The translations under genes were made by a program, and so were the position numbers. Positions 2,721 to 38,130 of a stretch of DNA of 64,000 nt are shown piece by piece. The stretch comes from Isoetes taiwanensis (lineage: Eukaryota > Streptophyta > Lycopodiopsida > Isoetales > Isoetaceae). The notes beneath the pieces were generated by a model. That model searched no databases. It was not told where the DNA came from and worked only from the letters and a program-made list of their open reading frames with translations. How positions within the stretch are numbered: the first letter of the stretch is position 1; each line of letters starts with the position of its first letter. The stretch spans positions 310,001-374,000 of the forward strand of contig JAJEKV010000075.1 in the NCBI GenBank assembly GCA_021234155.1, written 5' to 3'.

Positions 2721-2867
2721 CGATTGACTTAGCTCATACAATTTTATTTGGTAGTAATAGAATCGGAATGTGATTATTTTGCATGCATGCCTCGGGAATT
2801 TGTTCAAATAAGCCTAGGGACAAACTTTAATGAGCATCACATTAAAAAAGATGCAAAAAAAAAAAAA

Positions 2868-3060
2868 TAACGTCGCTATAACAAAATACGTCGGCGGGGG
2901 CGTCGCATGCGGCGTAAGACCGTGTTTATCTGGTTTGAAATAACGTCGCGCGCATGCGGCGTGGCGTTATCGCATCGGCGGCTACGTAATATTTTGAACC
3001 AGCGGGCGACGGCTTTTCCGGAACTTCTTTTTGCCCTACTTCTTCGAGGTTCTTGGGCGA
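2868..3060. repeat. Left subterminal array of CACTA-like element
   Basis: CpG-rich block with 'cgtcgcatgcggcg' at about 2901 and related 'cgcgcatgcggcg' and 'cgtcgg' words, standing out sharply from AT-rich flanks. The same motif family dominates 9800-10310. In CACTA elements such repeats bind the element's own protein; that role is inferred here. Confidence 0.5.
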
Positions 3061-3106
3061 TCCGCGGCGCTAGTACCCTGATCTACCTGCAAGCAACTAT
3101 TCTAAG

Positions 3107-3976
3107 GTTAGTATATCATGTTTTTTAGATTGAATAGGTTTTTTGGATTGAATGGTGCATGCCCAACCTTCCTCTTTTTTTGGTTTCCTTTCCTTCCTCT
3201 TCTTCTTTGTTCTTGATTTTTTTTCTTCCCATTCTTCCATGCCTCATTCATTCTTCCTCCTTCTTTCTTCCTCATGCCTCATTTCTTCCTCCTTCTTCCA
3301 TGCTTCATTCTTTCCTCATTCTTTCTTCCCATATTTCTTCTTTCCTCATTTCTTTCTCATTCTTTCTTCCTCATTCTTTCTCATTTCTTTCTTCCTCATG
3401 CTTTCTCATTCTTCATTCCTCACTCTTTCTCATTCTTCCTCATTCTTTCTCATTTCTTGCTTTCTCATTTCTTTCTCATGCTTTCTCATTTCTTTCTCAT
3501 TTCTTTCTCATGCTTTCTCATTTGTTTCTCATTTCCATTCTTTCTCATGCTTTCTCATTCCTCATTCTTTCCCCTCCCTTCCCTCATTTCTTTCTTCTCT
3601 TCCCTTCCTTATTCTTCATTTTTTTTCATTTCTTATTCTTCATTCTTTTTAATTTCATTCTTCATTTGTTTCTTATTCTTCACATTTCTTCCTCACTTTC
3701 CATTCGATCATTTTCTTTCCCTTCCCTTATTTCTTCCTTCCATTCTATTCCCTTCCCTTCTCTTATTTCCTCTTATTTTTCTTCATTCTTTCTTGTTTCT
3801 TCTCTTATTTCTTCTCTATTCTATCCTTATTTCTTTCCTTCTATTCTCTTATTTCTTTCTCTTGTTTTATTTCTATCTCTTGTTTTCTATCCCCCCCCCC
3901 TTTTTTCCTTTCTTTCTTCTTCGATCTTTTTCTTCTTTGTTCTTATTCTTCTAATGCTTTGTTACTTCTGTTGCAG
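3107..3976 (+). other. Putative 5'-leader intron containing an ~800-nt pyrimidine tract
   Basis: From about 3160 to 3960 the plus strand is almost only C and T, built from irregular 'ttctttctcat' and 'cattcttcct' units. It ends in 'ttctgttgcag' at 3966-3976, a textbook 3' splice site. A matching donor, AAG|GTTAGT, lies at 3104-3112. A 53-nt candidate exon follows (3977-4029), then a strong donor G|GTAAGT. The long serine-, phenylalanine- and leucine-rich open frames here follow from the base composition and are not proteins. Confidence 0.5.
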
Positions 3977-4029
3977 CTTTCTATTACGATTTGGACCCGA
4001 CAGGATCTTGTACACGCGTCCTTATTTTG
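3977..4029 (+). other. Candidate 53-nt leader exon of the kinase-like gene
   Basis: Bounded by a canonical acceptor (ttgcag) and donor (GTAAGT). The next good acceptor in phase with a start codon is at 5065, just before the ATG at 5074. The exon is therefore probably untranslated. No transcript evidence is available. Confidence 0.4.
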
Positions 4030-4094
4030 GTAAGTAATTGATTGCACTTGCATTTTATTTTTATAGTTTTAAGTAGGTTAAAAAAATTGATGGA

Positions 4095-4435
4095 GTGGCT
4101 TGTTCAAGGGCACGGGTCGGCTCCACCTAGAGTGGGGAGGACCATGTACCCGGTGGCTTGTTCAAGGGCACGGTCGGCTCCACCTAGAGTGGAGAGGACC
4201 ACGTACCCGGGTTCAAGTCCACTTCCAGTTCCACTTGTTATTTTTTAGGTTTAAAATAAAATTGTAGTGGCTTGTTCAAGGGCACGGTCGGCTCCACCTT
4301 GCGTGGAGAGGACTAGGTGTCCGGGTCCAAGTCCACTTTTCTTCTCATTCTTAGGTAGATGTGGCTACGGCAAGGACATGGTCGGCTCCACCGCGAGTGG
4401 GGAGGACCAGGTGTTCGGGCCTTAGTTCACGTTTA
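4095..4435 (+). repeat. Four copies of a tRNA-like unit inside leader intron 2
   Basis: Units start at 4095, 4153, 4267 and 4371, each beginning 'gtggct' and holding 'cggctccacc' and a 'gtgg.gaggac' core. Units 2 and 3 end in 'gggttcaagtccac' and 'gggtccaagtccac', close to a Pol III B box (GGTTCRANTCC). Their first and last bases can pair (GTGG with CCAC). They could be degenerate tRNA-derived SINE monomers. An A box is not convincing. Confidence 0.4.
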
Positions 4436-4439
4436 TTGT

Positions 4440-5065
4440 CAGTTTTAGCTAGAGGTAGCTAGGGCTAGGTTAAGTTAACAGTAACTGGATGATTCCCTTC
4501 ACACCCGTGCTAGTTAAAAAAAAATAGGTTAGGCTAACTTAATGTAGTACTAATTCGCACTAAAAGCTTTGGTAAAAAAATAACTTAACTAATTAACTAA
4601 ATTATTTCGAACATGTCTAGTTAAGTTAGCCAAAGGCATAAAAAATTATATGTACAATTAACTAAACTTAAAGTGACCTCTATAGTGCTAATTTCTAATT
4701 TAGTTAATTTTTAGTTAATTTTGCTAACTAATCCGAACAAGGTGCGAAGATAAGTTTAGGTAGTGTTTTTGGTTAAAAAAGTTAACTAAATTTCGGGACT
4801 ATCTGCTAACTAATTAACTAGTAATACGAATGTAAATTGACCGTGGGTCTGAATACCCTAATCTAACCTATTTAGTTTTTCTTGTTTCTTCTTCCTTTTT
4901 TTCTTGCTTTTGGGACCGGGGGGATAGGATAAGGTATTAGTCGCCATAGGGCGTGTTATAAGTAATGATTATATGGTCTGCATACATGTTTGATATTGTC
5001 GTATTATGTTGCATTTACTTTGTGCATGCTTGGCTTTTGTATTCATTATTTTGTTTTGTTTGTAG
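4440..5065 (+). other. AT-rich rest of leader intron 2
   Basis: Rich in 'ttaactaa' words from 4460 to 4860. It ends in a pyrimidine-rich stretch and 'ttgtttgtag' at 5065, a plausible acceptor for the exon with the ATG at 5074. I see no coding signal in it. Confidence 0.4.
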
Positions 5066-6560
5066 GCATAAAAATGGCCTCAGTAAGGACAGAGATGCTT
5101 AGTGAAATTAGGCGCATCCTCATCAATCAAATATGCGCACAGACCGACCCGGAACGACATATGCAAACTGATGATCGAATTAACCGTTTTGTAGCATCAG
5201 TTGAGAAAGAATGTCGGTCTGAATTATGTGGGAGGTGGCCAGAGCATGAGTCTGAGTTGGAAGATATGATGAGAAAGAACTTAAAGTCTTGGGTTTGCAA
5301 TCCTGAGCCAGAATTGAGGATGCTACTTAAGTATAAAGTGCCACTTATGAGCCCCTATGCTGAGGCATACGTGGGACGATGGGCTAATTAAAAAAGCCGA
5401 AGTGCAAAGGTCCGACGCAAAAGATCACAAGATGGCCAATGCTTGTCTCAAAGATGAACAGGTGAAGGAGTTAGATAGTCTTATCCATGGTGGGAGCTCT
5501 ATTGGTGCAGGGGCTAGATTATCATTACATGCTCATGATAAATGTGCTGCATTTATTGACAAAGACATTCCCCGTGGATGCTTTGTTGGAGTTGTAAAGT
5601 GCATTGGTAGTAAACAAGACTGCCAGATATACCAAATCCAGATCTTGGGAACCCTGTACTTTAATCAAGATGATTATTATACTGGCATTGTGTGGAGAGG
5701 CCAAGATAGAGCTGCATCATGGTTGTTGGCTGACAAGTATATCCGTTTCAAGAGCCCAAGTCCAGCATTGGCCACACCCCTTGGACTTGCCCCTGAGGTC
5801 TTTTGTGGAGATGAGCCACAGGGACCAATGGTAGTCTTGCCATTCATGAATGGAGGAACCTTTGCAGAATTACTTGACCATCTTCCGAGCCAATTCTCTT
5901 CTTATAGGAGATGGTCAAATGCAATGCATAGTGCTCCAAGAAGGGCTGATATGAAGATAAGTGCGGAGTGGAAAGCCAAAATGAGACTCGTGTATAAGTA
6001 CGTCCCAGAAATAGCTCTCGCTCTTGCAGAAGGAGTCTATGCCATCCACGCTCCAGGTTGGACACACACAAAGCTCAATTGCAAAAGGCTCAAACTCCAT
6101 TTTGATGACTCCCTTACAAATGTGTGGGTGGCTATTGGTGATTGGGACATGGCCCTCTGTTTTTTTTGCAAGGAGCGAATGCCCAAATTGAAGAGCCGTT
6201 ATACACTACAAGATGGAACGGTGCGATATCCTTGGTGGGAGAAGAGAGTTTTTACACCATCATCAGATGACCAAGCATCATGGGGGCATGAGATATCTGA
6301 CATATATTCCCTGGGCTACATTTACGAGATGCTCCTTGATTTTGTCCAGGCAATGCGGCTTATGGGGTTGTGTGTTGAGATAAACCCAACCCAATAGATA
6401 CTCTAGCACATTGGACATCATCCAACATATGAAGGTCCAAATGATGATGGATAGAGAGCTGGTGCACATGGATCGCCCATCTATTGCTCGCGTCGTCGAT
6501 GTGTTCAAAAACAAAGGGGCTTTCTTCCGATATAGTTGTGAGAGAGAGAGCGACATATGA
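5066..6560 (+). pseudogene. Protein-kinase-like (pseudokinase) gene, two frame breaks
   Basis: The first exon frame starts with ATG at 5074 and runs to a stop at 5391. The reading continues in the next frame from about 5357 to 6397, and in the third frame to a stop at 6560. Without the shifts it would encode roughly 490 residues. Kinase-fold signatures appear in order: VVLPFMNGGTFAELLDHL (hinge and helix D, about 5830), an HTKLNCKRLKL catalytic-loop equivalent (about 6063), GDWDMA in the DFG position (about 6137), SDIYSLGYIYEMLLD (helix F, about 6297) and, after the second shift, MDRPSIARVVDVF (about 6470), the RPS..VV motif of subdomain XI. The catalytic Asp of HRD is Lys here and DFG is DWD, so even an unbroken copy would probably be inactive. 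The N-terminal ~100 residues (MASVRTEMLSEIRR...) resemble nothing I know. It lies inside the CACTA-like element, behind two candidate leader introns. Confidence 0.6.
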
Positions 6561-6780
6561 AGTGTGGTGATCCACTTGAGATGGCTAAGCTACTTTTGTT
6601 AAATGCTTGCAAGAAGTGATTAATATAATTTTGTCTTCCTATTTGAGGCTTGTTGCAACCAATAAATGTTTTTATTCAAAATTACTAATGAAAAAGTAAT
6701 TTATTAATCAAAAAAAAATTATTATTAATGGTAAATAAATTATTAATCATAACTTGTAGATAAAGTGTCGCTACTGACGC
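6561..6780. other. AT-rich spacer
   Basis: Contains A-rich runs and 'attattaat' words. I see no gene or structured element. It may hold the 3' end of the kinase-like gene, but no clear polyadenylation cluster stands out. Confidence 0.4.
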
Positions 6781-7020
6781 GTCAAACCCTAGGTTTTGTG
6801 CTACATCATCAAACCCTAGATTGTAAATGCCATGTGGCACAATCTAGGGTTTGATGATGTGGCACACTAAGCTAGGGTTTGATGACATGGCACTTACTAT
6901 GATGTGGCAATAGGAAGTCGCGACGTGACACAACCTAGGGTTTGATGATGTGCCACACGCAACGTAGGGTTTCATGATGTGGCACTAAAAATGCCACGTG
7001 GGATAATTTAGGGTTCGGTG
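6781..7020. promoter_or_regulatory. Telo-box-like repeats with a perfect 22-bp inverted repeat
   Basis: At least six copies of AAACCCTA or its complement TAGGGTTT lie within 240 bp, mostly inside a unit 'tagggtttgatgatgtggca'. Arms 6803-6824 and 6839-6860 are perfect inverted repeats separated by 14 bases. AAACCCTA is the known plant telo-box promoter motif. The block sits about 450-700 bp upstream of the coding start at 7468, so a promoter role is possible. A collapsed MITE is the alternative. Confidence 0.45.
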
Positions 7021-7208
7021 TATGACATGATACATGGCCTGATAATATGGCAACCTAGAGTTCGATATGCACCCCATACATATATACGAGATACTTTTCT
7101 AATATAAATAAGAAGATAAGAATATAAATTTAGGTATTTATTCAAAGACACTTGTTCAAAGCTTTTCTCTCGCTAATTCTCGTTATGTTCAAATTAATAT
7201 ATATAGTC

Positions 7209-7349
7209 ATGGCGGAGGCTCAATTCTTAGCGGTTTTCCTCATTGTGGCCCTCTTTCTGCTGATGCAATATTCATGGCGTTATGCGTCTCCCCCTCCGCC
7301 CGGTCAAGGCGGTCAAAGATCGGATAGAAGTCCGCCGGGGGCTCATTAG
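7209..7349 (+). CDS. Small ORF, 46 residues, one membrane helix
   Basis: ATG at 7209 encodes a peptide with a single hydrophobic helix (FLAVFLIVALFLLMQY) followed by a proline- and glycine-rich tail. TATA-like sequences lie at 7079-7110. It could be a first exon of the gene that follows or a chance ORF. I recognise no family. Confidence 0.25.
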   Translation: MAEAQFLAVFLIVALFLLMQYSWRYASPPPPGQGGQRSDRSPPGAH

Positions 7350-7467
7350 TGGCACATTTCGAACCATGAAAATACTATCATTCTATTATTGCAACCAATA
7401 TCATTCATGGTTATCAAATGTTTCTCTCACAATTTCTTTTGATCTAGGTGTGCTCTTTTTCTCGGCG

Positions 7468-9580
7468 ATGAATAGAGGTAATCGCAATCGTACGGAGAAT
7501 GAGCAAGGCGAAGGTAAGTATTTATATAGTTTTTATTATAAAATTTACCCTCTAATTAGGTATGTGAGTTTATGCATGGAGTTTTAATTTGTTGTGTAGA
7601 GGAAAGGGGCGAGTTTAGAGAAAATAGGAGGAGGACTCCACGAGGTAGGGGCAATCGTCTTTGATGTTCCTCCAAGACGCCAACCTCCACCTATCACTAC
7701 ACCAGCAGGTTTGGGTATTAAGATAGCTTTTTATAAAAATAATAAATAAATGAATTGTTTTTTGCATGATATTTGTGCTTCTGCAGCTCCTCCGCCGCTC
7801 CCCGCCTTCCTCGCAAACATGTCTCCCGCCGAGAGAGACCAAATTGCAGCATATTTTGCCTCTTTGACACCAACGCCCGGTTAAATGACCTCCCCGCTCC
7901 TATTCCCCAACGACATAGTGTTGATTATCGGCCCACCGTTCTCGCGAGAATATTGAGAACGCTAGACGTAGTATGGACTCCCGTTCTAGGCAAGAGACGG
8001 GAATAGATTTTTCTAATGCAAGGAACTTGGAGGAAGATTTCAACAGGTAAATATATATCCACTACGTACCAAACATTTCTTTGGTTGCAGCATGTTAAAG
8101 ATGCTCATTCTCTCATTACTTCCCAGGTCAAGAAGTAGTGGAGCAACGGACTCACAACGTTCAAGATCACGACGATCATCACAGGGTTCGGGATCCGAAG
8201 AACATGGTCGCCGCCGCTGACTTGGAGAGGGAAGGATCCCGACGACGCCCACGTGTCAAGAAGAAGCGTCCATTTAAGCTTTGTTTTAGACACGTAAGTC
8301 TGCGGGTGATTTGGCCCCGAATATACCCGACTATCATATTAATAATAATTTTTTGATGTAAGTTATGTGAACATATTATTTAAGATATCAACCTTAAATA
8401 TTAGTACTTTGTCATCTAAATTTGTTGTTTTGTTCATTCTCTTCACTTAGAATACATTGTAAAGTGCTCAAAAGGTTCTTAATCGGGACGGGATATGTAT
8501 ATTGACGGTGAACATAAACACGCTTTTTATATACCCACCATTTATGCTTCAGGGGACGCTCTTCCTAAGAAGGATGATGAGGGAAGTGTCTTTATACTAC
8601 TACGAGGGACGTTGTCACAAATAATATCTCTCGTTTATGGCCTCCCCACGGTATAGGGAGTGGCACAGCGCTTATGACCAACGCAAAAATAGAGAGCGTC
8701 AAAAATAAAATGAAACAGAAGTTTCCCGAGATAGAAAAAGCAAAGGCGTTTAACTGGAAGAAGCTCACTTCGATGATGGGCGAGCTTATACGAAAAAGGA
8801 GGTACATGACCTAGTCATAGTCTTGTTTTTATTATTTTGATATTGCGTTGATCTATCGATTTATGTCAAAGGCACCATGTGGTCAAGGAACTGAAGCAGA
8901 CTTGCGAAAAAGAAGGAGGCGATTGGTCAAAAGTCCCTAAACCACTTATTTCTTATTTTTTTTGTCATTCGTTCACTTTAACTTGTGATAATGTTGTGTG
9001 CCTTGCAATCAGATTGCATTCGAACGTGCAAAGGATCCAGAAAGCAAACATAGAGCTCGGACCGACAAAGCAACTAAAAGCACGCGAAAGCCGTCTCATT
9101 TGGGCTCCGGCGGTCGAAAAGGGTTTTTCCATAGATTCGTAAGAGCTATATTAGTTCACATTAATTTTAATAAGAACTTTAAATGTCACTAGCTAATACT
9201 CGTTATATTGTCATAGGAACATCTATACGGGTTTGCCCCTAACAAGCAGCACGTACAAGTAGCCACGGAACGTGGAGCTGTTTATCTGTATCAACAGTTA
9301 TACGACGAGGGAACTCTCCCACTTCGCGGGAATGCGGGGGTGCGTTGTAGAAAATTATTATAATTCTATGAACTACATTAACGCCATATTCTTTTGGTTT
9401 TTATAGGAAGCAGTGGCGGATATGAATGAAGGTCTAGAGCATGACATGGGGCTCGGGGGCGGCGAGGGATCTGCAAACATTGCTGGAGAGCCATCCAATC
9501 GCAACCGTGCGGCTGACGGTTCGAGGCGTCCTCTAACTACGTACTCGGATGACTACTCCACTGAATCTGAGAGAGATTAG
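7468..9580 (+). CDS. Transposon-borne split gene of unknown function (about nine exons, 5' half frame-damaged)
   Basis: Candidate exons with GT-AG borders: 7468-7513, 7600-7708, 7787-8046, 8127-8293, 8451-8801, 8872-8932, 9013-9138, 9217-9339 and 9407-9580. Introns are 67-157 nt, mostly 67-86. From 8581 to the stop at 9578 the joined frame is open and every junction keeps phase. It encodes a lysine-rich segment (KMKQKFPEIEKAKAFNW), then KHRARTDKATKSTRKPSHLG, then EHLYGFAPNKQHVQVATERG, and ends in an acidic tail (YSDDYSTESERD). The middle part recalls the basic 'NK.NR.K' block of Ptta/En/Spm-type plant transposon proteins (weak). The upstream exons are Arg/Ser-rich (SRSRRSSQGSG) and carry about three frame breaks. 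Position next to the CACTA right end suggests an element-encoded accessory or DNA-binding protein. Confidence 0.5.
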
Positions 9581-9795
9581 CTCTAGGCTAAAAGGGTGGA
9601 TACTCCTCTTAACGAGTCTTTTGTGATTATTTAAAAATATAAATACAATTCACTTTTGTGATTATTTAAAAATATAAATATAAAAATAATTTTGTGACTA
9701 TTTAAAAATATGAATATAAAAACACTTTTGTGATTATTTAAAAATATTTTTATATTTATATTTTTTATATAAATATATTTTTTATTTTTATTTTT
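9581..9795. repeat. AT-rich tandem repeat, about 45 bp
   Basis: Repeats of 'ttgtgattatttaaaaatat' at about 9620, 9655 and 9727, with a variant ('gactattt') at about 9692, then a (TA)-rich run to 9795. It separates the gene from the right subterminal array. Confidence 0.55.
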
Positions 9796-10315
9796 TTCCC
9801 CTACACGTCGCATGCGACGTATCCACGTGGCTTTTTTTTGCCACGTGGCTTTTCTATACGCGGATTTTCGAATTTTCCACGTGTATATTCCACGCCACGT
9901 ATATTCGCACGCGTCGCCACGCGTATATTCCACGCATATATCGCATCGCGGCTTTTCCACGCGCACGCGTGTATATTCCACGTGTATATTCCACGCGTAT
10001 CCACGTTTCCGTTCTGTCACGTCGCATGCGACGATACACGGCGTTTTTACAAAGACGCCAGCGTGGATTTTGTTGATGTTCCACGTGTATATTCCACGTA
10101 TATTCCACGCGTGTATTTTCACGCGTGTCACGCATGCATGCGACGCCTGCGCGACGTCTCGTATCGCGTCTGCGACGCGTCTGCGCTGACGCTCGCCAAC
10201 GTCGCATGCGGCGACGTCGCATGCGACGGCGTGTTTAAACGACGTCTGGCGGCGATGTCTGCGCGACGCCGTCAGACGTCGCGCAGACGTCGCTATAGAC
10301 GTCGCTAAATGACCC
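9796..10315. repeat. Right subterminal array of CACTA-like element
   Basis: About 500 bp of CpG-rich repeats: CGTCGCATGCGACG palindromes (about 9804, 10020 and 10200 onward), 'tattccacg' and 'ccacgtggctttt' words, and 'agacgtcgc' near the end. Open frames on both strands here (up to 166 residues) are Arg/His/Tyr-rich products of the repeats, not genes. It mirrors the left array at 2870-3060. Confidence 0.55.
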
Positions 10316-10574
10316 TTTTCTTGTTGTGTTTGCTGCTCTAGCGTGGGGGCTCAGAAAATTCACGAAAGGTCATCTATGAGCATATCGGCATAATCCTTTG
10401 CTGCTCATAATCCAATGCATAGCGAGGTATACAAGGAGGCTGCCAGTAGAAGGGTTCTAGCAGCCCGCCAAGCCAACCTACAGTAGAGTGGAAAGGTGAT
10501 CCGAGTCCGCCTCCTCATCTCTATTGTGCGTGCCTACCGAAAGTGGTTGATCAAATGTACATCCCGCCGGCTGA

Positions 10575-26851: not shown

Positions 26852-27802
26852 TAACAATATGATACTGGAATTGCACCGGATACCCTTGGGATGATGGAGA
26901 GAGGCTTGAAGGAGCCCACAGCTGCGATATAATATGTCTGGTAGAGACATGGGAGCACAATATCAAACGGCTGCCAGAGGAAGAGGGTTACCACCTATTC
27001 ACATCCTGGAGGATTTTAAGATAGGAAGAGGGAGCTGCAGCTAGCCTGCTACCTGAAAGAGAGTGTAGCAGATAGTGCATGTATTTTACATTCGGATATC
27101 AATAAAAGATACATGATACTAAGTATTCAATTACAAAACAAAAAAGATTTAATTCTGATCATAGTGTATTACCCGCCAAACAGTGACAAACTAGAATTGC
27201 TAGACTTGGGGGAGAGTATGATGAAATGGAAAGACCAGAGACCAATGATTCTAATAGGGGATCTAAACGCCAGAACAGGTCAGGAACAAGCACAAATCAC
27301 GAGCATAGACGAAGTGAATGGGCAATGGACACATACTGCAAGATCACAGGATTGGAGAAGAAACACGGAAGACAAGACAGAGATCAATGCCAAAGGAGAA
27401 TTACTGCTTGAAGTATGCACGGCGACAGGGGTCATTATAGCTAATGGGATACAAAAATGGGAAGGATCTGGGAATTTCACGAGTCAGAATGTACACGGGA
27501 GAAGCATAGTGGAAAACGTCTCAAGCTTCGTGCTACTAGAATGGTCGACTGGGACGCGGGAGAGTCACAAACCCATTCAGTTAACATCCAAAGGGGGTGA
27601 GCAGACACAGGTTGATAACACACAGAAAGAATATAACGCGAAAATGAAAATACAATTCCAGGATAAGTATGCAGATACATTTGCACAAATGATCAGAGCA
27701 AAAATGGAAAACTGGGAATGGGGAGAGCATAGGGCAGACGAGAATGGGAATATGCTTAATGACATAATGGTGAAGGTGGCAACAGAGGTCTTCGGAAAAT
27801 GA
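26852..27802 (+). pseudogene. LINE ORF2, AP-endonuclease domain, frame-broken
   Basis: YWNCTGYPWDDGERLEG then DIICLVETWEH (catalytic Glu, about 26928) in one frame. From 27113, in another frame, come LILIIVYYPPNSD, MILIGDLNARTGQ (catalytic Asp and Asn, about 27260) and GVIIANGIQKWEGSGNFT. The order is normal for the domain that nicks the target DNA to prime reverse transcription. The C-terminal SVIDY-type motif is replaced by SIVENV. Confidence 0.75.
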
Positions 27803-27855
27803 AAGAGGCCCAGGAAGAGCAATGCTTTCAAGGCCTCTGTATGGTATGACGAGGA

Positions 27856-29044
27856 ATGCAGGGAACAAAAAAGAAGCATCTAGGCAGTCAAACAGAAAGG
27901 GCGGCATACCTAAGAATGCTGAAGTTAAAGCGCAAGAAAAGTTTGGTACAGAGCCAATGGGGTTTGGCTAAAATGCTGAAAAAGCAACCTCGGAATTTCT
28001 GGAAGGGATTTAAAGGAAAGGGAGAGGGGAATAGGAAAATGGAGAATACACAGAACAGTATTGGAGCAGCCGGATGGGAGAAATACCCTACTCTATAAGA
28101 CGGGGGCATCCCTAATACCAATACCCCCATTGCAGGAGATGGATAAACCGTGCTTCAGCATGCAGGAAATAATGATAGCACTAAATAGGATGGCAAATAA
28201 TAAAGCCCCAGATCTCTAGGGACTGACTGTGGAGTTACTAAAATGTGCTAATACAGTAATTGGGAGACAGGTTACCGACATTTTCAATGGCATAATCCAC
28301 ACAGGGCTCCCAGATAGATGGGCATACAACAGGGTAATACCTCTACACAAAGGGGGAAGCAGGGAAGAACCGGGAAACTATAGGACGATAATGGTGAGCT
28401 CTATCTTCGCGAAGTGGTTCGGAAAAGTGCTAGACAACAAATTAAAACAGTGGGCAGAAGAAGGAAAGCTGAGGGCACAAGGACAGGCAGGCTTCAGGCT
28501 GGAACACTCAACTACAGACCACTTAGTAAGCCTCAGAATACTAATAGAACATAGCAGGTCAAGGGGAAAGAAGATACTATGCTGCTTTGTGGATTTTAGA
28601 AAAGCTTTTGACACTGTACCGAGAGAAAAGCTCATACAGAGACTAATAGACATGCAGGCACCAGAAGGCATGGTAGGAGCAATTGCAAGACTATACCACT
28701 GAGTCTATGCAAAAATGGAACAGGAAGGACAGGCGATAAATTGCGATACGGGAGTCAAACAGGGGTGCCCTCTATCCCCGACATTGTTCGGCATATACAT
28801 ATATGCATTACAAGGTTTCATAGCAGGACAACAAGGGGATACGAACGCCCCCATGCTAGGAGACACCAAAGTACCCATTATGCTATATGCTGATGACTTA
28901 AGCATGATGGCCACAAAAAACAAGGGGATGCACAGATTACTAAAACTACTAGAGATCTTCTGCGAAAGAACATGGTTAAACGGTGAACCCCGCGAAAACC
29001 AAAATAGTCATTTTTGGAAACAGGAACAGACACTGATCGTTTAG
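27856..29044 (+). pseudogene. LINE ORF2, reverse transcriptase domain
   Basis: After a linker (KKQPRNFWKGFKGKG), the RT begins with LNRMANNKAPDL at about 28172. Motifs follow in order: YNRVIPLHKGGSREEPGNYR, RAQGQAGFRLEHSTTDHL, CCFVDFRKAFDTVPREKL (first catalytic Asp), VKQGCPLSPTLFGIYIYAL and MLYADDLSMM (YADD at 28886-28897). Internal stops fall at about 28217 and 28700, and a one-base shift near 28980 moves the NPAKTKIVIFG motif into another frame. The enzyme would copy the LINE RNA at the nicked target site. Confidence 0.85.
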
Positions 29045-29048
29045 GTAT

Positions 29049-30080
29049 ATGGGGACAGAATTAGAGGAATCAACAGAATACAGGTATCTGGAATATGACG
29101 CACACAGCACGGGAAAATGGGCTAAAGGTGCGGATGCCAGGTTCCAATCAGCCATTGGGAGCTACTTCAGTATGAAAATTTTCTGTAATAAAAGTAGAAT
29201 AATCGACTGGGAGATCAAGTGCTACTTATTCAGTGCAGTGGTTGTGTCGACTCAACTATATGGGGCTGAGGCATGGGGACCGGACCTGACAGATAAGAAA
29301 TGGGACAAACAAGAAGGGATCCTTAGACAATGGCATAAACAGGAGTTTAGGGTACGGGCAAACACACCCTTGACAGTCATGATATACGAGACAGGCCAGA
29401 AACCAATGGAAGTGAGAGCATGGGAAAGGGCTATCAGGTACCTAATGAAAGACAATGCAGGGGGTCATCCAAGGAAGCTGTCAAGCTTTGCAATCAACGA
29501 GTCAGCAAAGTACACATCATCATAAGCAGTGGATGGTTCAAGGATGTATGATATGGATCAGAGAAATGGAGATGAACCTGAGTGACCTAGTAAACAAAGG
29601 GAAATGGAATGAAGATTGGGCCGACAAGACTACACGAGCATGGCTGCAAAAACATACCGGACCCAAGACACTGTGGCTCACGACAGTTTTCAATCCAGAA
29701 CAACAGATAGGGCAACAGATGTACCGAGACAATATGCTAGGGAAGGCCAGGAGAGATGCCATGGCGAGATTTAGGATGGGGAACCACGATCTAAGAATTG
29801 AGAAAGACAGATGGAGGAAAATAGAAAGGGAGAACCAGATATGCAGAATCTGTGCAAAATCCGTGACACAGGAAAAGTAGAGGATGAGAACCACCTGCTC
29901 AACGAATGCCCAGTATATGGAGACATCAGGAACAAGTACAGAGACATAAGATGGGGACAGCCAGTGCACGCCCTGATGATAAGGGCAGACACAATGAAAG
30001 ACCTGGCAGATGCAATCTAGGAGATGATGACCAAACATCGAGAAGCACACAAAGAAAGAGGGCTTATAATATGAATCGCC
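29049..30080 (+). pseudogene. LINE ORF2, thumb/C-terminal region with zinc knuckle
   Basis: It begins with the YRYLEYDAHSTGKWAKGADARF region, equivalent to the 'YLG' segment. VVVSTQLYGAEAWGPDL then CRICAKS...ENHLLNECPVYGDIR follow. The last is the C-x2-C...H...C knuckle near the LINE C-terminus (about 29845-29925). Frame breaks occur near 29505 and 29878. The rest, to about 30080, is charged and unremarkable. Confidence 0.7.
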
Positions 30081-35499: not shown

Positions 35500-37665
35500 T
35501 CATTCTCCTTTCCACAGCTTGCATATATTGGCCATTGAAATGTAAGCTGAAGCATCATTGTCGTTCAGCCCTATTCATGACTGTAAAGTAGGCCTTGCAG
35601 CTGCCATGTTGTCCCATCTTGGACAAACACTCAAAACTCTTGCCCATATCATCATATCAGGTTCAAATGGCATGTCCCTTGCCACAGCAAGTGTGTCATC
35701 CAGGAGGTTGCCTCGACCAAGAAGATCAACTATGCAAGCATAATGCTCGACTGTGGGAGTAATCATACCCCACATGCACATTGCCCAAAAGTACTCTTTC
35801 CCCCTGTCAATGAGACCAGAATGATTGCAGGCAGTGAAAATAGCCAGAAAGGTGATGTTGTCTGCTTCTTGAAGTTCTTCCACCATTATTGCAAATAGAT
35901 TAAAGACACGTTTGGTGTTTCCATGGTTGGCATATCCTGCTAGCAGCATATTCCATGTCACTAAGTCTCTTGTGGCCATAGAATCAAAGACATGCTGAGC
36001 ATCAACCATACTTCCACATTTACTATAGAAGTCAACCAAAGAGCTAGCAACCAGCAGGTCCTCCTGGAGCCCAACGTTGCGAATTTTGACATGTATCTGC
36101 TTTCCAATTTCCAAGGCTCCTAAACAGCTGCAGGCTTTCAGTACAGCAATATAGGTTAGAGCATTTGGTGAGAAACCTTCATTCACCATGCGGGTAAATA
36201 GTTGTAAAACCAGATTGTTCTCTGCACTATCAGCATACCCAAATATTATGGCATTCCATGACACTATATCGTGGTAATACATGCTGTCAAATACAATATG
36301 AGCATGCTCCATGCTCCCGCATTTAGAATACATATCCACCAGAGTGTTGGCCACAAAAATGTCCAACCCATATCCATCCTTTGAAAGTTGGGAGTGGATA
36401 GCTCTACCCTTTTCCAGATGCTCTACTTTTAATAATTTTCCTTCAAATTTATTGGCATCCTCTTTAACTGCAGATCCAGCACATGCTTTCAGTGCTGAAA
36501 CATATGTTCTCCCATCTGGCAAGAAACCTTCATTTTGCATTTGCTCAAACATCTGTAAAGCCAACTCATATTCCCCATTTTCTATATAACCGAATATCAT
36601 GGCATTCCAAGTCACCACAGAGCGACGCAACATCCTGTTAAAGATATCACGAGCATGCAGCACACTCCCACATTTCGCATACATATCAATCAGCATACTT
36701 GCAACAAAAACCTCCAACTCAAACCCATCCTTTGCAACTTCAGAGTGGATAGCCATACCTATCTCCAGAGATTGTCTTTTCACAATCTTCTCTTCCACTT
36801 TCTTGCCCTCTTCTGTTGCTGCACAAGTAGCACATGCTTTTAGTACAGCAACATAGGTGCGTGAATTTGGCTTCAAACCGTCATCTTTCATACGCAGAAC
36901 TAATTGTAGGGCCAAATCACAATCTCCATGCCGTGCATATCCAAATATTAGGATATTCCATGTCACCACAGAACGATGCGACATCTTGTCAAAGACCCTA
37001 TGAGCATGCACCATGCTTCCACATTTTGCATACATATCAACTAGGGTGCTCGCCACAAAAATATGTAGCTCATACCCATTTTTTTGAAGTTGAGAGTGGA
37101 TAGCTATGCCTTTTTCCAAGAACTCCACTTCCATAGATTTCTGCTCGATTTTGTTGCCCCCCCCTTCTGATCCACAACTGGCACATGCCTTCAATATAGC
37201 AACATAAGTTCGACCATTTGGCATAAAACCTTCATTTTGCATAGCTCCAAATAAACTAAAAGCAAATTCAGAATTTTCAATCCCTGCATAACCAAAAATT
37301 AGAGCATTCCATGAACCAAGGTCGTGATATTGCATGGCGTTAAATACTCGATGAGCATCCAAAATGCTCCCACATTTGGCATACATATGAACTAGCGTAG
37401 TAGCCACAATAATGCTCTTATCATTTGAACAGATCACGACAGCATGAATTCTAGTCCCATTCTGCAAATTATTTGAAATGGTGCATGCCTTCAATTCAGG
37501 AAGTAGGACAGAAACCTTCTCTTTGAACTTGTAACTAAAGGTAACACGCAAACGGGGGAGCTTCTTATCATCCCGGAATGCCTGTGTTCCTTCTTTCTTG
37601 TAATGAAGGCTTTGATGTTTTGACATACACATGAAGATGGAGTGTGGTGGAGCTGCCTCTAACAT
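35500..37665 (-). CDS. Pentatricopeptide-repeat (PPR) protein, P-L-S class, stop within E domain
   Basis: A 696-codon intronless frame from ATG at 37665 to TGA at 35577-35575. Five P-L-S triplets are visible, marked by 'LVDMYAKCGS..HAHRVF'-type, 'SWNALIFGYA'-type and 'TYVAILKACA'-type segments. A C-terminal segment follows (VEHYACIVDLLGRG, MPFEPDMMIWARVLSVC), the start of the E domain. The reading continues in the same frame past the stop for 24 codons (GLNDNDASAYISMANI, typical E-motif sequence) to a second TGA at 35502-35500, so the stop at 35575 looks like a premature nonsense mutation. No DYW deaminase domain follows. The first ~55 residues are basic and could be an organelle transit peptide. 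Such proteins bind plastid or mitochondrial RNA in editing, splicing or stability. It may be functional without E, or a recent pseudogene. Confidence 0.85.
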
Positions 37666-37669
37666 TTGC

Positions 37670-38130
37670 CTTAAACTTGAAACTTAAAATTCAGGAAGCA
37701 AGTGCTCACCTTGGCTTGACTTCTATCTGTGCCGGATTTTAGCTCTTGCCTTGTCATAGTAATTCTGTTTGTGGGCATCCTGCTCTACTAAACATTAGAA
37801 AACATCTCTACAGGTAGTGATGTTTTGTTACCTTCAGTCCTAGGCAAGCAACAGAGCAAATATAAGGTATGGATTCTCGAAAATCGTCCAATGGTTCTAA
37901 AGTTTTTTTTGCTAGCTTGAAGATCTTTGTTCCTACGCCAAAAAAGAAGTTATTCCCGTATATTTTCATCTCCAAAATTCTTGCTTCAAATATTAAAACC
38001 ACTAACTAACTTATTACTTTCACTGCGTGGATGGTCTTTGTCTGTAACCCATCTTTGTCTTGGGCTTGCCATCCCTTATATCTAATATCACATTTATTTT
38101 AACCAACTTTTAGGGGCCATGTGGTACTTC
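37670..38130. other. 5' flank of the PPR gene
   Basis: Contains the presumed minus-strand promoter. No clear TATA box could be chosen by eye. It is directly followed by the Harbinger-type element. Confidence 0.35.

Follow-up and report, generated by a model that had tools for sequence, protein, structure and literature searches.

A large CACTA/EnSpm element with SET and kinase-resembling genes as the probable source of a 7.5-kb stretch in the quillwort Isoetes taiwanensis

The window analyzed here is a stretch of 64,000 nucleotides from the genome of the quillwort Isoetes taiwanensis (C1084:310001-374000; C-numbers denote contigs of the assembly). A preliminary description of its positions 2838-10328 had seen there a compact, 7.5-kb CACTA-like transposon that lacks a transposase and carries a pseudokinase gene and a second split gene. 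Taken as a whole, the evidence is best explained, with high confidence, by another reading: this 7.5-kb stretch belongs to one decayed copy of a large CACTA/EnSpm family, of which it forms the right-hand part. On the plus strand, the features begin with the right-hand part of an internal tandem array with units of about 1.1 kb (1-2837), which was recognized by sequence comparison and has traces extending to the left of the window. It is followed by an internal junction between the array and the gene, with a CGTCG-rich block (2838-3060), and by a pyrimidine-rich leader with short direct repeats, visible in the sequence itself (3061-5073), for which introns had been proposed. A decayed kinase-resembling gene of family A (5074-6616), identified by its match to the protein of an open copy, precedes the open reading frame (ORF) pieces of a second split gene (7134-9577) and a right subterminal block rich in CGTCG/CGACG (9795-10328), which was defined by genome matches and motif density. 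The block closes with the right terminal inverted repeat (TIR) CACAACAAGAAAAGGGTCATTTAGCGACG on the minus strand (10300-10328). Directly outside this end lies TTT (10329-10331), the presumed right copy of a 3-bp target duplication.

The right end at 10328 is an ordinary, true CACTA terminus, as had been described. The 29-bp repeat CACAACAAGAAAAGGGTCATTTAGCGACG is exact and, with up to three mismatches allowed, the window contains it a single time (0 expected). Genome-wide, it is found at 294 sites (153 + 141) at up to one mismatch, and the reversed control gave 0. When the genome was searched at the DNA level with 9795-10328, 39 of the 40 main matches stopped at the last base of the block, and the bases past this end vary among the copies that are readable in that orientation. 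The matching subterminal GC-rich arrays were likewise confirmed by motif counts. The motif ACGTCGCATGCGRCG, at up to two mismatches, has 10 matches in the window, all of them within 2900-2915 or 9805-10229 (0.01 expected). The density of CGTCG/CGACG per kb is 22 in 2838-3060 and 32 in 9795-10328, against 1.2 between the two blocks and 0.3 in 10329-64000.

The proposed left terminus at 2838 must be given up. A genome search with 2838-3060 returned matches that begin at the first base in 38 of 40 cases, but this apparent border arises because the query was cut there. The bases upstream of CACATTAAAAAAG are common to 11 of the 11 aligned copies, with homology extending up to about 1.7 kb upstream of 2838 and continuing into the tandem array. 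Position 2838 is therefore internal and is no element end. The trinucleotides outside the proposed unit, CAT before 2838 and TTT after 10328, form no 3-bp target duplication. The block 2838-3060 may instead be a promoter-proximal block of the kinase-resembling gene. The period of the array (units of about 1.11 kb) was taken from a self-BLAST of the 7.9 kb to the left of the C1030 copy (L047), which matches itself at offsets of 1109, 2212, 3335, 4443 and 5568 bases with 83-86% identity; a repeat scan with long units returned nothing in this sequence. The number of units varies, from about three in the C41 copy to little over one in the C930 copy. At the window locus, pieces of the array reach from C1084:282002 up to the window, that is, about 28 kb to the left, and they are interrupted by inserted sequence at about 284.6-295.9 and 302.3-309.4 kb of C1084.

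The whole element can be described from other copies. Both ends were recovered for copies on C907 (36,824 bp, 3-bp flanks GAT/GAT), C1103 (19,566 bp, ACT/ACT) and C1019 (25,848 bp, TGA/TGA; left TIR without its first six bases), so that the 3-bp flanks match in three of the three copies with both ends found. Left TIRs were also seen in the C41, C76 and C1031 copies. In the C1103 copy, the SET, Transposase_21 and kinase-resembling genes lie on one strand between the two ends. The host site of this copy is a repeated retroelement (integrase recognized by eye), and its flanks, joined with a single ACT, match 40 of 40 scored genome places across the join with 85-96% identity. Since paralogous retroelements thus provide empty sites, the C1103 element is one inserted unit. 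Both marks of transposition to which the preliminary description had pointed were found, namely duplications in the C907, C1103 and C1019 copies and empty sites for C1103. Along the C41 copy, a left TIR with its first base changed is followed by a SET-like frame, the frames of tnp2, then the array, and finally the beginning of the kinase-resembling gene. The order in a complete copy is TIR, SET, tnp2, array of about 1.1-kb units, kinase-resembling gene, second gene, CGTCG-rich block and TIR. Because the left boundary was wrong, the size of 7.5 kb and the idea of a carrier without a transposase are wrong as well: full copies span 19.6-36.8 kb. The absence of a transposase is correct within the 7.5 kb but not for the family, in which Transposase_21 lies upstream in the C1103, C41 and C930 copies.

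Some other terminal sequences are arranged differently. On C1025, three exact left-type TIRs (10456750, 10462946 and 10469162; L064, L065 and L066) lie about 6.2 kb apart and share the same 12-base flank AATAGCAATCTA; they are a tandem duplication that includes flanking DNA. They were rejected as partners of the right end on this contig, as the three left-type ends flank CTA and the right end flanks GGA. On C919, TIR ends at 20231168 and 20285772 (L069 and L070) are 54.6 kb apart, and their outer 12-base flanks are mutually inverted. This pair was rejected as one element on account of the inverted flanks and the missing duplication, and it is either an inverted duplication or an assembly feature. 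At C1032:12365455-12370545 (minus strand), only about 3.3 kb separate a left terminal region from a kinase-resembling place, which leaves no room for tnp2 and the array, and this copy is probably a deletion derivative.

The transposase is assigned by Pfam, with a match to Transposase_21 (tnp2; PF02992) at 3.4e-57 for the C930 piece and further matches inside the C1103 and C41 copies. The C930 copy also has a DUF4216-like Pfam match below the cut-off, and no Pfam match to Transposase_24 was obtained in the sequences scanned. The Pfam SET scores are 25.2-32.1 bits for the family-A-type pieces, with 25.2-25.6 bits in one of two scans (curated cut-off 22.4). SET domains contain a catalytic tyrosine and an NH motif, usually as INHS. 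The pieces found here read INSS at that place. The aligned rows read GDELFINY in four family-A-type pieces and GDELFIQD in one family-B piece (L087, 578-916), the tyrosine position differing in family B.

The order of the genes was then counted genome-wide. Counts from the genome searches are lower bounds, taken from the best-scored matches listed. For family A, these comprised 120 kinase-resembling places, 150 tnp2, 149 SET, 40 junctions and 40 right ends, with 10 of 130 kinase-resembling rows (second pieces), 17 of 167 tnp2 rows (unlisted or left out) and 6 of 155 SET rows excluded. The kinase-resembling gene is thus present at at least 120 genome places. Among the matches listed, SET lies within 20 kb of tnp2 in 42 pairs, and in 41 of them it is upstream on the same strand; SET pieces stand directly upstream of tnp2 at 6 of the 10 PF02992 loci, for which a flank of 1.5 kb was examined. 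Within 60 kb of the kinase-resembling gene, SET forms 36 pairs, in 30 of which it precedes the gene on the same strand; it follows the gene in one pair and lies on the opposite strand in five. For tnp2, 16 such pairs were counted, with 12 upstream in the same orientation and 4 on the opposite strand. Random placement gave a mean of 0.44 tnp2 pairings and a maximum of 3 in 1000 runs, compared with 8 observed in the same 103 places. The junction block is upstream of the kinase-resembling gene in 14 of 14 cases and the right end downstream in 11 of 11.

The search with the family-A protein also gave places 51-63% identical with long open frames, which constitute family B. This family has at least 84 scored kinase-resembling places, and the search with its SET piece gave at least 150 matches; 41 of 150 SET rows, taken as family-A SET, and 5 of 89 kinase-resembling rows (second pieces) were excluded. 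SET lies within 60 kb of 18 of the 84 places, 16 times upstream on the same strand, once downstream (C1056) and once on the other strand. Random placement yielded a mean of 0.28 and a maximum of 3, compared with 14 observed in the same 70 places. Between the two families, the kinase-resembling proteins are 51-52% identical and the SET pieces 52% identical. As 16 of the 18 family-B pairs follow the order of family A, the same two genes are found in the same order in two diverged families. The order kinase-SET-tnp2 suggested by C1056 was dropped, because this locus has a further SET match 13 kb upstream and 16 of the 18 pairs show the usual order. The two family-B SET copies of this contig (C1056:11806500-11807900, L087, and C1056:11789008) flank one kinase-resembling place in the manner of two head-to-tail elements. 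The kinase-resembling gene is a fixed, standard component of the family and no one-off capture. The cargo had been regarded as an unusual case of whole-gene carriage, which its presence at so many places and in a second family contradicts; the accompanying idea of a lineage-specific gene family sitting in CACTA elements was borne out.

An open copy of the kinase-resembling gene (L017, on C1037) has 505 codons, and at 12 of the 120 places the match spans 300 or more of the 330 query residues with no stop codon. The window copy is broken, as the open-copy protein aligns to it in two different frames (5074-5421 and 5390-6616) and across stops. By eye, the motifs follow one another as in kinases: a hinge-like VVLPFMNGGTF, a helix, HTKLNCKR, D-W-D and D-[IV]-Y-[SA]-L-G. 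In nine aligned members, HTKLNCKR and the D-W of D-W-[D/E] are invariant. The HRD position reads HTK in 9/9 and the DFG position DW[D/E] in 9/9, with its D kept. The reported loss of both motifs consequently holds for HRD, where the change is fixed, and only in part for DFG. Because H-R-D is replaced by H-T-K, the usual kind of catalysis is not expected. The ratio of nonsynonymous to synonymous substitution rates (dN/dS) is 0.18-0.24 between families A and B, at a dS of 1.9-2.5, which is near saturation; within family B it is 0.32-0.45 and within family A 0.49-0.70. This pattern fits selection on an active lineage together with the decay of dead copies. Conservation across two families and a dN/dS near 0.2 imply a selected function.

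The second gene, for which nine exons had been proposed, is present as short ORFs. These pieces (7134-7346, 7264-7512, 7600-7746, 7925-8047, 8581-8811, 8992-9189, 9217-9360, 9407-9577 and others) are conserved in three other copies (L043-L045), best in the last exons, with frames disrupted in places. From its position, the gene may encode a TNPA-type partner of the transposase. Between it and the kinase-resembling gene, 25-28-base repeats in direct and inverted orientation surround CTAGGGTTTGATGATGTGGCAC (6782-7075).

Two other arrangements of the element have to be weighed against one large CACTA family. A compact, non-autonomous CACTA element at 2838-10328 with two captured host genes would account for the CAC... 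at the left, the matching CGTCG blocks and the distance from the junction to the right end, which is 6.6-7.2 kb in four of the five paired copies. However, the junction is never a border in the aligned copies, the pair 2838/10328 has no duplication, and complete copies with duplications are much longer. The compact reading is refuted for the copies examined and retains almost no probability. It is also very improbable that two families, an autonomous SET-tnp2 CACTA and a separate element with the kinase-resembling and second genes, lie side by side or nested through a chance join. The array of variable length that separates the two halves would suit such a join, as would the many kinase-resembling places that have neither SET nor tnp2 in the surrounding 60 kb (among the matches listed). 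Most pairs nevertheless keep one strand order, in two diverged families, and in C1103 a single TIR pair with a matching duplication and empty sites encloses all three genes. Several observations weigh against the large-family reading itself. Both ends were recovered in only three of the seven copies tried: in C41, another element sits at the expected place of the right end, in C76 and C1031 the right end was not found, and at C1056:8178991 neither end was at the predicted position. The C907 and C1019 copies have no transposase among the matches listed, in which 84 of the 120 kinase-resembling places also have no SET and 104 of the 120 no transposase within 60 kb. For the window copy itself, neither a left end nor SET and transposase genes were found in the 28 kb leftward; array and inserts fill this distance, so its left end was not reached. 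The family-B SET scores 17.3 bits, below the Pfam cut-off of 22.4, and a PDB search with a profile of five SET pieces gave no SET chain at E<=1. The second gene, with its pieces taken singly or joined, matched no Pfam family at E<=1. The near-saturated dS between the families and the dN/dS within family A count on the same side.

The third alternative concerns the nature of the conserved protein and has a little less than an even chance. It may be unrelated to kinases and instead be a lineage-specific accessory (e.g., a DNA- or chromatin-binding protein) whose motifs are alike by chance. The preliminary description had called for comparison with the Pfam kinase model, and Pfam gave no kinase family in 9/9 members. 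Searches by sequence and profile in Pfam, NCBIfam, PHROGs and PDB likewise gave no match. With hhalign, the comparison with four kinase domains scored 6.6, while shuffled alignments reach 20.8, and the hidden Markov model (HMM) scores against the four kinases are inside the range of shuffles. No relative was found by tblastn in phages and a scan of viral contigs, and the sole match in genome contigs (44 residues, Methanolobus, L075) was taken as chance. On the other side stand the motifs, whose order by eye is that of kinases; the first three are invariant or nearly so in A1. A single-sequence structure prediction has a helix and strand order that would fit a kinase, but its mean predicted local distance difference test (pLDDT) score of 31.4 is so low that this proves nothing. 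Given the missing library and profile matches, the shuffle-level scores and this pLDDT, the label "kinase-resembling" was kept. Of the kinase-fold gene as first described, the ORF and the kinase-like motif order remain; the window copy is frameshifted and the fold has no support from sequence comparison.

For the large CACTA family, a working scheme can be proposed. Excision and reinsertion by tnp2 are established for CACTA elements, and here tnp2 would cut and paste the whole element, which the target duplications and empty sites fit. The second gene would supply a TNPA-type protein whose binding sites are the CGTCG/CGACG repeats of the two ends and of the internal block 2838-3060. This block could serve as a promoter block and so create an element-controlled second transcription unit beyond the array. 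The SET and kinase-resembling proteins might be kept as helpers against, or within, host chromatin silencing, and an anti-silencing role is presumed for both. That many copies keep the two genes together suggests an element with its own host-handling toolkit. A bolder version is possible, though rather unlikely: a module of SET and a catalytically impossible kinase-like adaptor, fixed before families A and B split (their proteins are about 50% identical), would manipulate host chromatin or silencing, with the internal CGTCG block and the array forming the second, element-controlled transcription unit.

Known systems offer partial parallels. Plant CACTA/EnSpm elements, such as Jozin of Chenopodium (PMC8978399) and a 20.5-kb soybean element (PMC2613891), share with the Isoetes element the CAC-type TIRs, 3-bp duplications, dense subterminal repeats and Transposase_21; the DUF4216-like piece here is below the cut-off. 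In angiosperms, CACTA elements are reported to gain Transposase_24 and Peptidase_C48 domains in ORF2 (PMC8978399). The Isoetes element differs from these plant elements in its SET gene upstream of the transposase, its kinase-resembling gene beyond a long array and the lack of a Transposase_24 match. The HarbingerS and MuDR families of Phytophthora are likewise DNA transposons that encode SET methyltransferases (cited in PMC12730594), but they belong to other superfamilies and hosts, whereas in Isoetes SET is paired with a kinase-resembling gene inside a plant CACTA. A constant epigenetic accessory gene is also found in fungal DNA transposons of the CACTA clade and others (EnSpm, Plavaka and IS3EU); it is TET/JBP there and SET in Isoetes, and IS3EU has an alpha-kinase gene as well (PMC12730594). 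SET- and TET-bearing transposons elsewhere have been read as silencing counter-measures (PMC12730594).

A literature search, which covered few subscription papers or Repbase reports, found no plant CACTA element with SET and a kinase-like gene. CACTA elements with accessory genes are already known; what appears to be new, judged from sequence, is a plant CACTA lineage in which SET and kinase-resembling genes form a fixed set. With its many SET copies and a conserved, probably enzyme-dead gene, it would provide a lycophyte case in which silencing counter-measures can be tested. The element would also account for a large gene family of recent spread, which could be mistaken in annotation for host kinases or SET proteins. 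Furthermore, the copies found here show that long tandem arrays can lie within CACTA elements and that such elements can reach at least 36.8 kb.

Beyond the element, two other features of the window were recognized by eye. Positions 27020-29880 (plus strand) contain frames like those of a long interspersed nuclear element (LINE), with endonuclease and reverse transcriptase pieces, and 35575-37683 (minus strand) form an open frame of 702 codons that resembles a pentatricopeptide repeat (PPR) protein.

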